The notes under the pieces were generated by a model, which was given only the letters and a program-made list of their open reading frames with translations, searched no databases and was not told the origin of the DNA. A program made the position numbers and the translations under genes. A DNA stretch of 5,576 bases from Deltaproteobacteria bacterium (lineage in GTDB: Bacteria; Desulfobacterota; Desulfobacteria; Desulfobacterales; JAFDDL01), in assembly GCA_019310865.1 (NCBI GenBank), contig JAFDDL010000275.1, forward strand, positions 1-5,576, in the 5' to 3' direction. Positions 1-5,011 of the stretch are shown in pieces; positions within the stretch are counted from its first letter, which is position 1; every line of letters starts with the position of its first letter.

Positions 1-1997
1 TGCTAGTCGGGTTGTTTGGCCTGGGCGCCTTCTGGATACCGGTCATCTGCCTGGTAACCAGCATTCAAATTTTGGGCAGCCAATCGGGCAAAACCATTGC
101 GCTGACCGTCGGCGGCGGTGCGCTGCTGAGCATCACCACCGGCGCGCTGCTGGCCTTGCAGCAAAACCATTATGAAATTTTCAGTGCAAAATTTTCATCG
201 GGCGGACTCATCGGTATCCCACTAAAGCGTTTTCTAGTGTCCTTTGCAAACCCCACCGGTGCATCGACGATTCTGATTCTGCTATGGGTCATCGGCTTTA
301 TTCTGGCAACGGGGTTTTCCTTTCAGGCCTTCTTCAAACGGTTCTGGCTCGCGTGCATCTTTGCAGCCGACCGGTTTCAAACCCTTCATATTAAATGGAA
401 GGAACGTCGGAAAAAAGCCAAAAAACGCCTCAAAACACAGCAAGTCAAACACACCCAGAGCCCGAAAAAAATAAAAATCAAGGCCCCTGAAATGCCCCGT
501 GTCCCCAAAACGCCCATTGCCAAACAGAAGGTGTTCGACTTTATGCGTCCCGAAAACGGATTTCAATTGCCATCCGTTAATTTTTTGGATGACGCGGACG
601 AAACGCTCGTGAAGCCGGATGACGAAAATCTGCGAATGCAGTCCAAAATGCTGGAAAAAAAGCTGGCGGATTTCGGGATCGAGGGAAAGGTGGTGGCCGT
701 CACCCCGGGGCCGGTCATCACGACCTTTGAATACGAACCGGCACCGGGTGTCAAAATCAATCGGATTGTCAGCCTCACAGACGATCTGGCGCTCACGCTT
801 CGTGCCATGAGCATTCGAATCGTTGCCCCCATACCGGGAAAGGCGGTCATCGGGATCGAGATTCCCAACGACAATCGCCTGATGGTCCGATTTAAAGACA
901 TCGTCATCTCCGGTGCTTTTCAAAAATCGAATTCGCTTCTGACCCTATGCCTGGGAAAAGACATTGTGGGCAATCCGGTTGTCGCCCAATTGAACAAAAT
1001 GCCCCATCTGCTCATCGCCGGCGCAACCGGTTCAGGCAAAAGTGTGGCCCTGAACACCATGATCTGCAGTTTCCTGTATAAAGCCTCACCGGAAACGGTC
1101 AAATTGATGATGGTCGACCCGAAACGCATCGAGCTGTCCGTTTATGACGGCATCCCCCATCTGATCACGCCGGTCGTGACCGACGTCAAGAAAGCGACCA
1201 ACGCATTGTATTGGGCGGTGCGCGAAATGGAACGGCGCTACGAATTGCTTTCAGAAAAAAAGGTCAGAAATATCGATCAATACAATAAAAAAATCGAAAA
1301 AGCGCTTAAGTCCGAAAACCCGGAAGCCGAGCCGCCCCCTGAAAAACTACCGTATATCGTTATTATCATCGATGAGTTGGCGGACCTGATGATCGTGGCC
1401 TCACGGGATGTGGAGGTGGCGCTCACCCGGCTCGCACAGATGGCCCGGGCAGCCGGCATCCATCTGATTCTTGCCACCCAGCGTCCGTCCGTGGATGTTC
1501 TGACCGGCATCATCAAGGCCAATTTCCCGACCCGCCTGAGCTTCCAGGTGTCCTCCAAAACCGATTCACGGACCATTATCGACATGAACGGGGCCGAGAG
1601 CCTGCTTGGCCATGGCGATATGCTTTTTTTACCCCCCGGTACCGCCAAGCTTCAGCGAATACACGGTGCATATATATCAGAGGCCGAAATTGCTCGCATC
1701 ATCGAGTTTTTAAAAACCCAGAAAAAACCCGAATACAACATCGACGTCACGGAAGACCAAAAGCAGGAGGCCGGACAAGACCAGGAGACCGAATACGATG
1801 AAAAGTATGACGAAGCCGTGGCCCTGGTGACAAAAACCCGCCAGGCCTCCATATCCATGGTCCAACGGCACCTGCGAATCGGGTATAACCGGGCAGCGCG
1901 CATCATCGAGGTGATGGAAAAAGAGGGCGTCGTCGGTCCGTCCGACGGCGCCAAACCCAGAGAGGTGCTGATCGCAAATTACGATGACATAAATTAA
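1..1997 (+). CDS. ftsK: DNA translocase FtsK (5'-partial)
   Basis: FtsK/SpoIIIE-family ATPase. In this family the protein sits in the inner membrane at the division septum, pumps double-stranded DNA as a hexamer and helps resolve chromosome dimers. The frame is open through the window's left edge. TTG at 12 falls inside a hydrophobic segment and is probably not the start; an estimated 60-80 residues, including the first membrane helix, are missing. Residues are numbered from the codon at 12. Hydrophobic segments lie near 1-21, 27-49 and 83-106. A Lys/Arg-rich linker covers about 128-175, and the alpha part of the motor about 205-300. Walker A is GATGSGKS at 337-344 (Lys343). The family block VDPKRIELSVYDGIPHL starts at 368. 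Walker B ends at Asp454-Glu455 (IIIDELADLM), and ATQRP is at 488-492. The C-terminal winged-helix gamma domain, which reads KOPS DNA signals in the family, covers about 596-655. All motor motifs are intact. The linker is short compared with E. coli FtsK, so the protein is closer to SpoIIIE in size. Confidence 0.97.
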   Translation, partial: LVGLFGLGAFWIPVICLVTSIQILGSQSGKTIALTVGGGALLSITTGALLALQQNHYEIFSAKFSSGGLIGIPLKRFLVSFANPTGASTILILLWVIGFILATGFSFQAFFKRFWLACIFAADRFQTLHIKWKERRKKAKKRLKTQQVKHTQSPKKIKIKAPEMPRVPKTPIAKQKVFDFMRPENGFQLPSVNFLDDADETLVKPDDENLRMQSKMLEKKLADFGIEGKVVAVTPGPVITTFEYEPAPGVKINRIVSLTDDLALTLRAMSIRIVAPIPGKAVIGIEIPNDNRLMVRFKDIVISGAFQKSNSLLTLCLGKDIVGNPVVAQLNKMPHLLIAGATGSGKSVALNTMICSFLYKASPETVKLMMVDPKRIELSVYDGIPHLITPVVTDVKKATNALYWAVREMERRYELLSEKKVRNIDQYNKKIEKALKSENPEAEPPPEKLPYIVIIIDELADLMIVASRDVEVALTRLAQMARAAGIHLILATQRPSVDVLTGIIKANFPTRLSFQVSSKTDSRTIIDMNGAESLLGHGDMLFLPPGTAKLQRIHGAYISEAEIARIIEFLKTQKKPEYNIDVTEDQKQEAGQDQETEYDEKYDEAVALVTKTRQASISMVQRHLRIGYNRAARIIEVMEKEGVVGPSDGAKPREVLIANYDDIN

Positions 1998-2004
1998 TGC
2001 CCAA

Positions 2005-2170
2005 CCAGAACTGGCATCGGAGTCTCGCAGGCTCGCTTACCTAAGGCCCAGGGCGGCGTTCTCGCATTTTTCCAATCCTCGGAGGTAAGCGAAGACTCCG
2101 ATAGTATGACTATGCCTGCGGTTGAAAAAATGCTGCGGCCTTGCCCTGAACCTTATGCTACCAATTCTGG
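2005..2170. repeat. Interleaved inverted-repeat element (A-B-C-B'-C'-A')
   Basis: Three pairs of complementary segments cross each other. Outer pair A/A': 2005-2017 (ccagaactggcat) with 2155-2170, one mismatch and a 2-nt bulge. Pair B/B': atcggagtct (2016-2025) plus tcgcttacct (2033-2042) is the exact reverse complement of 2083-2102, with 7 extra bases (cgcaggc, 2026-2032) bulged in B. Pair C/C': 2043-2078 with 2120-2154, imperfect, with cores cagggc/gccctg and gcattttt/aaaaatgc. A small central hairpin is atagt-atg-actat (2101-2113). The bulged cgcaggc is complementary to gcctgcg at 2114-2120. A, C, the centre, C' and A' thus form one long nested palindrome, and B and B' sit inside its left arm on either side of C. 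It may be a decayed MITE or REP-like element, a rearranged repeat, or a structured RNA. The pairing is seen directly; the function is unknown. Confidence 0.8.
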
Positions 2171-2261
2171 ATGGACATTAAAAAATCTGGTGACTATTTC
2201 ATTGCATGTTTGTTAGATTTTCGTTATGGTGTTGGGAAAATTTGCCGTGGGTTTCACGATT

Positions 2262-2265
2262 GGAG
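2262..2265 (+). promoter_or_regulatory. Ribosome binding site deciding the PilZ start
   Basis: GGAG lies 6 bases before ATG 2272. It supports the short 119-residue PilZ form over the upstream in-frame ATG at 2206, which has no comparable site. Confidence 0.65.
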
Positions 2266-2271
2266 CTGGTA

Positions 2272-2631
2272 ATGAATGACAGAAGAAAACACCCCCGTTA
2301 TCGTGTCAAAGATAAGGTGTTTGCGGTTCACTGGATGGCACCCACCCGAATCGGCCAAATTATCGACGTGAGCCTTTCGGGTTTGGCATTCAGCTATCTT
2401 GACCAGCATCCTTATCCCGATGAACCCACCGAAATCGGCATCCTGTTTTCAGATGACAAATTTTTCCTCAAGCAGATACCCTTTCAATCCATATCCGACA
2501 CCGCGATTCCCGGTCATCCGCTGAGCAGTGTTGCAATGAGACGCCATGGCGGCCAGTTTACCGAATTGACCCCGGCGCAAGAGAAAGAACTTCATTATTT
2601 CATAAAAAACCATACCACAACCCCTGCTTGA
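2272..2631 (+). CDS. Small stand-alone PilZ-domain protein
   Basis: Predicted cytosolic c-di-GMP receptor of 119 residues. The PilZ signature is complete: the first motif RxxxR is Arg5-Lys-His-Pro-Arg9, and the second (D/N)xSxxG is Asp32-Val-Ser34-Leu-Ser-Gly37, followed by beta-strand-like sequence. The end, GGQFTELTPAQ followed by an ELHYFI helix, is typical of single-domain PilZ proteins. I chose ATG 2272 because GGAG at 2262-2265 lies 6 bases upstream and the protein then begins directly before the binding motif. An in-frame ATG at 2206 would add 22 residues (MFVRFSLWCW...) that resemble no PilZ N-terminus and lack a good ribosome site. The stop is 3 bases before the lyase start, so the two are probably co-translated. 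With no output domain, it presumably acts by binding a partner; which partner cannot be read here. The ligand motifs make c-di-GMP binding likely but not proven. Confidence 0.9.
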   Translation: MNDRRKHPRYRVKDKVFAVHWMAPTRIGQIIDVSLSGLAFSYLDQHPYPDEPTEIGILFSDDKFFLKQIPFQSISDTAIPGHPLSSVAMRRHGGQFTELTPAQEKELHYFIKNHTTTPA

Positions 2632-2634
2632 CAC

Positions 2635-3567
2635 ATGTTCAAACCCGACATGACGTTGAATCTTCCGGATCGGGTGCACCTCATCGAAGTGGGCCTTCGC
2701 GATGGGTTGCAGATGGAAGCGGTCGTAATCCCCACATCATTGAAGCGCGATATTCTGGCCGGTTTAGAATCGGCCGGATTCGGCATGATTCAGGTGGCGG
2801 CCTTTGTCAATCCAAAAATCGTTCCCCAAATGGCGGATGCCGATACATTGGCAGCGACCCTTTCGAAAAAAAGTAACACCATTTACAATGCGCTGGTATT
2901 AAATCCCAGGGGCCTGGAGCGAGCCGTTCAGGCCGGCATTGCTTCCGTGGAAATCTCCGTTTCATCAAGCGACACACACAGCCGAAAAAATGCGGGTAGA
3001 TCCCGTAATCAGGCCATGAGTGAATCTCTGGAAATGGTGCGGATGGCCCTTGACAGCGGACTTCACGTTCGGGCCGGCATTCAAAGCGCCTTTGGCTGCG
3101 CTTACGAAGGCAGCATCGCCCAGGATCAAGTGCTGGAAACGGCAACCCGGTTCCTTGCGCTGGACATACACCAGCTGGCAATCGCCGACACCACGGGGAT
3201 GGCCACCCCCTTATCGGTCAAAACCCTGCTGGGGCAGCTGATGCCCCTGGCTGCAAGCATTCCGGTGGCCCTGCATCTGCACGACACCCATGGCCTGGGA
3301 TTGGCCAACGTGGTGGCCGCCATGGAATGCGGCGTGACCCATTTCGATACGGCATTCGGCGGACTTGGCGGCTGCCCCTTTGTGCCCGGCGCCGCCGGAA
3401 ATATTTCCACCGAGCAAACCGTGCGCATGATGACAAAGATGAACATTCAAACCGGAATCGATGCCACCAAAGTGTCCATCTGCACCCGCAGATTAAAAAG
3501 CTACATAGAAAAGGGGACGTACAAAACGGTACAAAACGGGGACGTTCGTCAGAATATAAGTTTCTGA
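2635..3567 (+). CDS. HMG-CoA lyase-like DRE-TIM metallolyase
   Basis: A 310-residue protein of the HMGL-like TIM-barrel family. Classical members cleave 3-hydroxy-3-methylglutaryl-CoA to acetyl-CoA and acetoacetate, in leucine or ketone-body metabolism. Visible family features are GLRDGLQ (Arg22-Asp23), FVNPKIVPQMAD from 58, the metal-ligand motif HLHDTHG (His214, His216), and the active-site loop GLGGCPF with Cys247 and Asn256 in the GN pair. One key position differs: where HMG-CoA lyases have IE before the TSF/SF strand, this protein has Ile52-Gln53 (codon cag, 2791-2793). The Glu of the 'DRE' signature is therefore Gln, so the exact substrate is uncertain. ATG 2635 lies 3 bases after the PilZ stop and has no obvious ribosome site, which points to translational coupling; Met6 (2650) is an alternative start. 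Residues from about 293 to 310 and the stop are encoded by a palindromic repeat, so the natural C-terminus appears to have been replaced. A related acyl-CoA lyase activity is possible. Confidence 0.87.
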   Translation: MFKPDMTLNLPDRVHLIEVGLRDGLQMEAVVIPTSLKRDILAGLESAGFGMIQVAAFVNPKIVPQMADADTLAATLSKKSNTIYNALVLNPRGLERAVQAGIASVEISVSSSDTHSRKNAGRSRNQAMSESLEMVRMALDSGLHVRAGIQSAFGCAYEGSIAQDQVLETATRFLALDIHQLAIADTTGMATPLSVKTLLGQLMPLAASIPVALHLHDTHGLGLANVVAAMECGVTHFDTAFGGLGGCPFVPGAAGNISTEQTVRMMTKMNIQTGIDATKVSICTRRLKSYIEKGTYKTVQNGDVRQNISF

Positions 3568-3605
3568 CTAGAAACTTATATTCTGACGAACGTCCCCGTC
3601 CCTTT
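3509..3605. repeat. REP/MITE-like palindromic repeat element
   Basis: A compact element between the convergent lyase and MFS genes. Its core is a perfect 30-bp inverted repeat (3536-3565 with 3570-3599) and a 4-base loop, gact. To the left are two tandem copies of tacaaaacgg (3520-3529, 3530-3539) and a second copy of ggggacgt (3513-3520, matching 3538-3545). The outer ends are nearly complementary: aaaggggacg on the left and cgtcccttt on the right (3597-3605), one G apart. This layout, with GGGGACG-type ends, resembles REP sequences or small non-autonomous elements mobilised by Y1 (REP-associated) transposases. That link is inference; no transposase is present here. The element contains the end and stop codon of the lyase gene. 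Confidence 0.8.
3536..3599. terminator. Possible bidirectional terminator hairpin (30-bp stem)
   Basis: The perfect 30-bp stem with a 4-base loop lies at the meeting point of two convergent transcription units. It would form a very stable RNA hairpin from either strand. There is no long T-run on either side (only ttt at 3603-3605 going right, and tttt at 3509-3512 on the minus strand, offset from the stem), so it is not a textbook intrinsic terminator. Its role in ending transcription is inferred from position and stability. Confidence 0.4.
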
Positions 3606-3610
3606 ACACC

Positions 3611-5011
3611 TTACGATCTTCGGGTTTTTCGAGAAGTAATGGCCCAGGTGACAACACCGTGCAAACAGGCCTGGGCGGCCAGCTGTCTTTTTTCCATCAG
3701 CGCCCAGGCCGCGTCGTCATCGCGCTCGATTCCCCCCTTTTGTTTTCCCAACAACAGAAGCGCCAGTATGCCGCCGATCAACGTCGTCAAGGCGCCGATC
3801 ATAAAGATCGTCTGCGGTGAGGTTCGTCCACTGATAATCGCCACCAGGGCCGGCCCGAGCACCCCCCCCAACGAAAGTGCCGACTCCTTTATCCCGATAA
3901 TTCTCGACCGATGTTCCTTTTTTGTAATATCCAAGTAAAAGGCACTGATGGCTGGGCCCTTTAACGCATCACCCACTCCGGAGATAAACGCCACCACCAT
4001 GATCAGAGAAAACAGCTGCACATATGCCAAGCCGACATAAAATGACAGGGAAAGCAAAAATCCAATGACAATGACCGGTCTGCGACCGAATCTGTCGCTC
4101 GATCTTCCTAAAATCATCTGGCTGGACACCATCGCCAGGCCAAATACCCCCACCACCAGTCCGAACCGCGTGGTGGACCATTTCAGGTCATCGTAGAAGT
4201 AAAAAACCATCTGGGGTTCTATAAATGAAAAGGCAAAGGAACCGATGAAATTCAGGGCCATCAGGGTGTAAAATATATACCGGGGCCTGGGAAGGGTTGA
4301 TAGAAACGAGGGCTCTATAATCGGTTCATGCAGGGGGTTCCGAAGGCCCCGGAGGCGGTCCCGGTTTCGAATCTTTGCTGTTCGCGTCTCCGGGACCAGA
4401 AGGCAGGCGGCCACAAATCCCAGAAAGCCGAAAACCGCCGACACCATGAACGGGGCGGAAAACCCTTGCCAATCATAGAGTGCGCCGCCGATGGCCGGAC
4501 CGAAAATGAAGCCGGCGCTATAGCTCCCCATCACGATGCCGATCCAATGTGCCCGCTTGTTTTCAGGCACCAAATCCGCCACGATCCCCATGGAAGCGGG
4601 AAAAAGGCCGGCAGTCAGAGCACCTTCCAGTGTTCGGATCAAAATGAATATGGCGATGGCCGGGGCGAACAGAAAACCCACATTGGAAAGGGCGAATACC
4701 GCCAGCGAAACAACCACCAGCGGACGCCTGCCGATGCGATCCGCCAGGGCCCCCATGAATGGTGCAGCGACCAACTGGGCCAGGGCAAAGGACATGGTCA
4801 TCAATCCCAGTGCCCCGACACCGGAGCCCAATTCACCGAATCGTTTCGCAAAAACGGGCATTATAATGCCGTAACCGGTCATCATCAATGCAACGCTACC
4901 GGCCAGCAGCCAGATAACCTTTCGAATCCGCCTGGGATCCAGGTTATCCGTAATGATATTATTGGCATATACAATCCGGCCAAGATTGGAATAATCGTTG
5001 GGGCTCGTCAT
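3611..5011 (-). CDS. MFS transporter, DHA1-like 12-TM exporter
   Basis: A 466-residue major facilitator superfamily protein predicted to lie in the inner membrane with 12 helices: about 33-55, 66-88, 97-115, 118-140, 155-178, 184-206, 246-268, 281-300, 312-330, 333-350, 373-394 and 401-422. Motif A between helices 2 and 3 reads GALADRIGRRP (87-97, Asp91). Its pseudo-repeat between helices 8 and 9 is GRSSDRFGRRP (302-312, Asp306). Helix 4 carries the motif B arginine (Arg126 in IRTLEG). Helix 5 carries GFIFGPAIGG (167-176), the motif C typical of proton-driven antiporters, which favours export over uptake. The substrate cannot be told; TetA/multidrug-like annotation by homology is expected. 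The start ATG overlaps the upstream SnoaL-like stop as ATGA, with GGAG 7 bases before it. A hydrophilic N-tail of about 30 residues and a basic C-tail (about 423-466) flank the membrane core. The 3' end nearly touches the palindromic element. Confidence 0.93.
   Translation of the reverse strand: MTSPNDYSNLGRIVYANNIITDNLDPRRIRKVIWLLAGSVALMMTGYGIIMPVFAKRFGELGSGVGALGLMTMSFALAQLVAAPFMGALADRIGRRPLVVVSLAVFALSNVGFLFAPAIAIFILIRTLEGALTAGLFPASMGIVADLVPENKRAHWIGIVMGSYSAGFIFGPAIGGALYDWQGFSAPFMVSAVFGFLGFVAACLLVPETRTAKIRNRDRLRGLRNPLHEPIIEPSFLSTLPRPRYIFYTLMALNFIGSFAFSFIEPQMVFYFYDDLKWSTTRFGLVVGVFGLAMVSSQMILGRSSDRFGRRPVIVIGFLLSLSFYVGLAYVQLFSLIMVVAFISGVGDALKGPAISAFYLDITKKEHRSRIIGIKESALSLGGVLGPALVAIISGRTSPQTIFMIGALTTLIGGILALLLLGKQKGGIERDDDAAWALMEKRQLAAQACLHGVVTWAITSRKTRRS

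Follow-up and report, generated by a model that had tools for sequence, protein, structure and literature searches.

Two short dispersed units in a MITE-like palindrome behind ftsK of a Desulfobacterales-like genome: a probable nested repeat

The ftsK locus and its palindromic element

The window, a stretch of 5,576 nucleotides (contig JAFDDL010000275.1), comes from a Desulfobacterales-like lineage: over the best segment, its ftsK shares 66-72% identity with those of the eleven nearest MAGs listed, which are classified as Desulfobacteraceae, Desulfobacterales or 'Deltaproteobacteria'. A repeat element lies between ftsK and a PilZ-like ORF (Table 1). The order of its parts, A-B-C-B'-C'-A', is that given in a preliminary description of this DNA, which placed the element at 2005..2170; all of the arms are present, but alignment with related copies makes the element longer, at approximately 1997-2180. 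With its ends set by this alignment, of 18 copies, the element begins on the final base of the codon that stops ftsK. Within the inner stem, C and C' were detected as 2064-2075 paired with 2122-2133 (92%).

Table 1. Features of the window, with the evidence or properties recorded for each
Feature	Position	Strand	Evidence or remark
ftsK	3..1997	+	Pfam FtsK_SpoIIIE, alpha, gamma, 4TM; 5' end outside window
ftsK stop codon TAA	1995-1997	+	touches host element
Host element with two inserts	1997..2180	+	aligned with insert-free copies (G014, G005, G002, G011) and with L365 of G046; search matches
Outer stem, left arm (A)	1998..2017	+	sequence, alignment; homologous columns covary in insert-free copies (helix 1)
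Insert 1 (B), long allele, 26 nt	2017..2042	+	26/26 identical in L087, L091 (G010) and L063; same allele many times in G046
B, fixed end GGAGTCT	2019-2025	+	
B, centre CGCAGGCT	2026-2033	+	
B, fixed end CGCTTACC	2034-2041	+	
Inner stem, left arm (C), up to CCTCGG beside loop	2043..2082	+	alignment; helices 2-3
Insert 2 (B'), short allele, 19 nt	2083..2101	-	1-nt centre at 2092; near-loop site; 19/19 identical in L094 (G008)
Apical hairpin atag-tatga-ctat of host	2101..2113	+	sequence; helix 4
Inner stem, right arm (C')	2114..2154	+	sequence, alignment, covariation
Outer stem, right arm (A')	2155..2177	+	sequence, alignment, covariation
PilZ-like ORF	2206-2631		weak, below Pfam's cut-off
HMG-CoA-lyase-like gene	2635-3567		
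MFS transporter and SnoaL-like gene		other strand	

The element at 1997-2180 goes beyond chance, because the MFE of 1990-2190 (-68.7 kcal/mol) lies below those of all 200 dinucleotide shuffles (-53.4, sd 4.2; z -3.6; 0/200 as low) and because homologous copies of both host and inserts exist elsewhere. No Rfam model matched within 1997-2180 up to E 1, and nothing in the plasmid and phage collections matched the element. An intrinsic terminator of ftsK was rejected, as no terminator-like site was found in 1900-2320. No such element was seen in the 200 bases 3' of ftsK at 12 related loci (L002 masked), and a BLAST search of the element against 80 ftsK loci (E<=0.01) recovered the host only in L044 and B alone in L063. 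The L044 copy (4616-4760; genome G014) is an insert-free member of the same host family and, unlike that of the window, lies on the upstream side of ftsK. Elsewhere in the window, a long near-perfect palindrome (ggggacgttcgtcagaatataag...cttatattctgacgaacgtcccc, 3533-3602) overlaps the 3' end of the HMG-CoA-lyase-like gene, the last residues of which appear to be repeat-encoded; its Rfam matches were sub-threshold miRNA models only.

Without inserts, the host is a palindrome of approximately 145 bp with the ends AGTGYCCATCC...GGATGGACACT, as judged from 18 copies in four genomes aligned end to end, all of which lack both B and B'. A search with positions 2000-2175 gave matches in seven of 20 related genomes (E<=0.01): at least 47 in G014 (MAG PL24a_bin.4, with 40 of 457 candidates scored), seven in G005 and two to three each in G002, G008, G009, G010 and G011. 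These matches are aligned pieces rather than copies, some copies yielding two, and the two in G010 are confined to B, as some in G008 and G011 are to B or B'. In G014 the copies span the window on either side of B and B' and omit both inserts.

Among 17 distinct copies, 95.3% of cells were paired, and 17 of 51 pairs carried changes on both sides, whereas shuffles gave 9.2 (sd 1.4) and slid versions no more than 8; the covariation score was 0.233 versus 0.103. The host palindrome is thus kept by structural constraint or by arm-to-arm copying. With its many dispersed copies, inverted arms that align end to end and compensatory changes, the host is, to judge from its sequence, a MITE-like palindromic repeat. 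The preliminary description would have taken an absence of other copies and of conserved pairing as the mark of a one-off structure; copies exist, those of G014 lack both inserts, and covariation is seen in both the A and the C stem of insert-free copies.

The aligned copies also differ between strands in their potential for pairing. Where columns 38-43 face columns 108-113, four pairs are mostly G-T or T-G (15, 16, 16 and 11 of 17 copies), the remainder of the last two being T-A. Pairing of these four would be limited to the + strand, a possible clue to the single strand that folds. The asymmetry is incomplete, since C-A is frequent on the + strand at two further column pairs.

Two inserts within the palindrome

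As the preliminary description stated, B and B' match over 20 bp with a 7-base bulge: 2016-2025 pairs with 2093-2102 and 2033-2042 with 2083-2092, each block being 10 bp long and perfect, and on the left side cgcaggc (2026-2032) stands between the two. Written on its own strand, however, each insert has the same ends around a different centre, B being CGGAGTCT-CGCAGGCT-CGCTTACCT and B' CGGAGTCT-T-CGCTTACCT (8 nt versus 1 nt). The exact 26-mer and the exact 19-mer are each found singly, without the partner, in other genomes, and one carrier of an exact B (L063) is a Desulfobulbaceae MAG. The flanks of these single exact copies differ, and several of them, including those in L094, are palindromes with a similar core.

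By this comparison, B and B' are two alleles of one short dispersed unit in opposite orientation, and not the arms of one palindrome. They are complementary because the same unit, with its fixed ends, stands in both orientations; since single copies have the same ends, the complementarity is no evidence for pairing. The 7-nt 'bulge' is the difference in length between the long and the short allele. The match between cgcaggc and gcctgcg, to which the preliminary description drew attention, does occur (2114-2120), but it is best read as coincidence, because it joins the variable centre of B to host sequence, GCCTGCGG, that is also found in 15 of 18 insert-free copies. What had been taken for a second palindrome threaded into one arm consists of two separable, non-palindromic units, each found alone elsewhere. 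The further suggestion of an insertion into a mobile repeat stands in that the lineage holds relatives, copies without B and B', and an inserted second repeat; it fails in that this repeat is no palindrome. The segment is very probably a nested repeat, in which a host palindrome carries two ultra-short units.

Alternatively, the element could act as an RNA (or ssDNA) switch between a B:B' and a C:C' helix, regulating ftsK or the downstream PilZ-like gene, as the preliminary description had also envisaged. Predicted energies of the two folds are similar enough for either to form: for + strand RNA (1997-2180), the free fold reaches -64.9 kcal/mol, compared with -64.1 when B:B' is forced and -62.5 when C:C' is forced, and with DNA parameters the free fold is B:B' (-31.4) versus -29.4 for forced C:C'. 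The free fold of the - strand (-77.5), however, keeps the A and C stems, and host copies with only one unit or none exist. Moreover, the centres of B and B' mismatch within one element (8 versus 1 nt in the window; CGCGAGCT versus CCACTTCGTTT in G046), the complementarity is a by-product of invariant unit ends, and neither a terminator-like site nor a recurrence behind ftsK was found over the ranges given above. B:B' was accordingly rejected as a conserved helix, the units being separable and their centres different, and we regard a regulatory switch as very unlikely.

Distribution of the short unit and occupancy of its sites

The unit, CGGAGTCT-(1 to 11 nt variable centre)-CGCTTACCT, occurs in many copies and shared alleles, in different contexts and with a preference for extragenic positions; its sites are found both empty and filled, with an orientation that goes with the site. 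A search of 50 of the 80 genomes collected, for the ends GGAGTCT and CGCTTACC around any centre of 1-8 nt detected it in 12, while the reversed control pattern gave one match in all. Counts were highest in G047 (175 in 2.4 Mb), G046 (157) and G043 (Desulfogranum marinum DSM 2058; 125), followed by 60 in the complete chromosome of G049 (Desulfosediminicola flagellatus IMCC35005), 24 in G011, 13 in G041, 11 in G045, three in G008, two each in G010 and G042, and one each in G037 and G013, the last being an 18-nt match. A stricter pattern, run on a sample of 297 genomes from the phylum to which G049 belongs, found the unit in six (46 in G121, 29 in G049, five in G139, and one each in G037, G266 and G308), with no control matches. 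Such exact-end patterns favour copies with intact ends, and most of the genomes are MAGs.

Including the fixed 7- and 8-nt ends, units measured 16-26 nt. Among the centres were a single A, G or T, two bases, stretches of 7-8 nt (mostly CG...CT) and longer ones of 9 nt (CCCTCCGGT type) or 11 nt (CCACTTCGTTT). In 94 distinct contexts, the preceding base was C in 88 and the next base T in 82. The 121 distinct flank-plus-unit sequences fell into 30 context clusters (single linkage, 70% over 20-nt flanks, exact ends required), of which the largest is over-merged, the window is one and another (L231) is probably a chance match. Only 17 of 119 units lay inside an ORF of >=100 aa, compared with 447 of 595 random positions from the same loci. 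Single copies, same-strand tandem copies and inverted pairs 40-60 nt apart were all listed, the tandem runs having a step of 17 bp in G043 and of 23 bp in G049.

Constant ends, high copy number and extragenic location would suit a functional signal, such as a protein-binding, uptake or segregation site under selection. The patchy distribution (none in 38/50 genomes, and none in 291/297), the tandem runs and the frequent location inside other repeats argue against such a role, which we consider scarcely credible. A hairpin formed by the unit alone was likewise rejected, as its fold is no better than that of shuffles (z 0.1 to 1.2). Within the centres, positions 3-6 (31 8-mers) and 2-8 (8 9-mers) gave a weak sign of compensatory change, at a shuffle fraction of ~0.02, uncorrected, and other pairs did not. 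The 200-nt flanks with the unit removed folded more strongly than random intergenic sequence (median -52.7, n=111, versus -45.5, n=100; Mann-Whitney p 9e-5), in a comparison whose sets overlap, whose copies are non-independent and whose composition is unmatched.

Among the matches listed from a viral-contig collection, most mixed centre length and lay in coding-like contexts, and most look like chance. Full ends were present in at least 20 of those listed, versus none for the reversed pattern, although these include fragments or close duplicates of a single contig, and the same coding-like context surrounds two of them; several adjoin degenerate ATTCG-type repeats. Such repeats accompany several units in L154, L204, L218 (IMG/VR 3300033153_011881), L122, L141 and L230, and these contigs, filed as viral, may be bacterial.

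Copies of one host family in G046 include some without units (e.g. L353), one with a left-arm unit only (L345), some with a second unit beside the loop (L346-L348) and some with further inserts (L356, L357, L362). When the near-loop site was anchored on host sequence, with no unit required, 60 intervals were recovered: 35 were a single nucleotide long, 19 held a plain unit (18, 25 or 28 nt), two more held one with N, one measured 4 nt and three were unrelated. The B' of the window is an 18-nt case at this very site, and the 19 plain units include 12 from G046 and five from G121, so these copies are not independent. Scoring of 54 host copies gave 30 with neither unit, three with the left only, six with the core only and 15 with both; another scoring, of 72 copies, gave 43, nine, six and 14. 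Both tables depend on the search expressions, which covered just the + strand for the upstream unit and just the - strand for the near-loop one, and most doubles come from non-independent copies in G046. In a separate test of orientation, near-loop units lay on the - strand in 21/21 cases and upstream units on the + strand in 18/19 (the exception being L324).

No target duplication was visible in pairs of empty and filled sites. Beside the loop, the unit either takes the place of a single T (unit strand) present in empty copies or keeps that T at its end. In the left arm, empty and filled copies also show differences of one or two bases in their flanks. Among the matches listed, an empty counterpart was found for at most 90 of 121 contexts, an upper bound because tandem arrays in part matched their own sequence and a filled copy was hit at least once.

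These sites could also be read in the opposite direction, with B and B' as ancient built-in modules of a palindrome superfamily that drifted at the centre and were lost cleanly from many copies. Both the near-loop and the upstream (left-arm) position are occupied in G041, G046, G121, G139 and the window, and the near-loop filling in these five genomes, with differing centres, could go back to an early insertion passed on within the host family; a single ancient event per position would account both for this occupancy and for the near-constant orientation. Loss, however, would have to be base-precise in 35 intervals, the same site holds units of 18, 25 and 28 nt, and units also occur in many other contexts (the 30 clusters) and in tandem arrays. 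Built-in modules therefore seem rather improbable to us.

Possible mobilisation and comparison with known repeats

A nested mobile repeat with a moving ultra-short unit is the overall explanation that we consider probable. A MITE-like palindrome directly behind ftsK would host two units, one in the left arm (+, long allele) and one beside the loop (-, short allele), each behaving as a tiny, non-autonomous mobile element of 18-28 nt and recurring at particular positions in hairpin-forming repeats, with a preferred orientation per site and without visible target duplication. We infer that the unit itself moves, perhaps through a dedicated process that targets hairpins extruded as single strands of DNA or RNA, in which the fixed ends would be the recognised part and the centre tolerated cargo. 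That a hairpin-directed, enzyme-driven process moves it is a tentative proposal, and a doubtful one. More speculative still, and in our view unlikely, is that the unit could represent the smallest mobile DNA, with 8-9 nt recognition ends and a 1-11 nt payload, written into hairpin repeats of Desulfobacterota at one chosen position and in a set orientation, without duplicating its target, through an enzyme or RNA-templated process new to science.

Neither of two candidate mobilisers gained support in the loci and genomes compared. Y1 transposase matches were found in all 12 genomes tested (10 unit-bearing, G014 without the unit and G051 outside the unit search), but none of the 30 Y1 loci fetched, a subset of the matches, held an exact unit, and degenerate units numbered two versus one for the reversed control. 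Reverse transcriptase gave no signal, being present in six of nine unit-bearing and 11 of 17 other genomes, with G013 counted among the latter despite its one 18-nt match. The Y1 results also bear on a REP/REPIN reading, in which a RAYT (Y1) transposase would mobilise the repeats and B and B' would together form one REPIN as its pair of REPs. The units are short and extragenic, some form inverted pairs 40-60 nt apart or clusters, and Y1 matches are present in all ten unit-bearing genomes tested; the unit, however, is non-palindromic and folds no better than shuffles, singles and same-strand tandems are frequent, and the Y1 loci yielded the counts just given. We judge a REPIN origin to be very improbable.

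Small dispersed repeats (SDRs) are very small mobile repeats in Nostoc and its relatives. They were reportedly described in cyanobacteria by Elhai et al. (Genome Research 18:1484, 2008) as dispersed repeats of 21-27 nt, nested in minitransposons and in each other, and SDR4-6 are said to share a common secondary structure backed by compensatory mutations. We know of no protein that mobilises SDRs, and the spread of 20-30 nt repeats is, to our knowledge, an unsolved problem. SDRs resemble the unit in size, high copy number, dispersal, restriction to a lineage, nesting in repeats and precise insertion with empty counterparts, although the short end of the unit's range (16 nt) is slightly below theirs. 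The unit differs in phylum, in its sequence (not known to be related) and in its bipartite form of two fixed ends around a 1 to 11 nt centre. Cyanobacterial SDRs would be the nearest known analogue. The neisserial dRS3 / NIME repeats are 20-bp repeats with conserved ends and a variable core that form mosaic intergenic arrays. The unit is similar in its shortness, conserved ends, variable centre and mosaic intergenic arrays, but the ends of dRS3 are inverted repeats, whereas the two ends of the unit are unrelated.

Precise insertion of SDR5 within HIP1 is cited in PMC4390886; our unit would instead prefer a particular place within a hairpin to any fixed octamer. PMC3116915, which describes REPINs, names SDRs among the repeats whose origin might be studied likewise. 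Compared with those REPINs and REPs, the unit is alike in being very short, extragenic, apparently non-autonomous and sometimes arranged in inverted doublets and clusters, and unlike them in not being palindromic, in its frequent singles and tandems and in the lack of an exact unit at the fetched Y1 loci. In PMC4853749, Thiomargarita MITEs are large hairpins; our host, at ~145 bp, is called MITE-like from its size, inverted ends and many copies, and the two inserts of the window are no part of that MITE-like host. Searches on the halves of the unit, and on extragenic, palindromic and dispersed repeats of Desulfobacterota and sulfate reducers, found no published description of it, and its novelty is claimed only against that literature.

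Hundreds of copies in several alleles, two named strains that carry the unit, and sites that are empty or filled with base-level precision make both the movement of the unit and the factor responsible testable. More generally, a strange fold in a single sequence can be the fossil of a nested insertion and not an RNA switch.

Other inserts and other hosts were seen among the palindromes. Five G046 copies (L350, L356, L357, L362, L363) have a further insert (ACCCCAAGGGTACTTCTTGCAGGGC type) in the right arm of the host, and in some of them a unit-like GGAGTGTCGCAGGCTCCCTTACC lies inside it, making an insert within an insert within a palindrome. A different palindrome family (GGACGAAATAACTTCC...CAAGTAGGCG type) carries the unit in L087 (G010) and has a unit-free counterpart in L027, where a similar end sequence also stands directly after ftsK. 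In L109 (G014), two copies of the host family (near 924-1060 and 1-130) hold a different short hairpin insert, AATGGCGGAGCCATT..., near the loop; G014 has no exact units, and the near-loop position may thus be a general hot spot.
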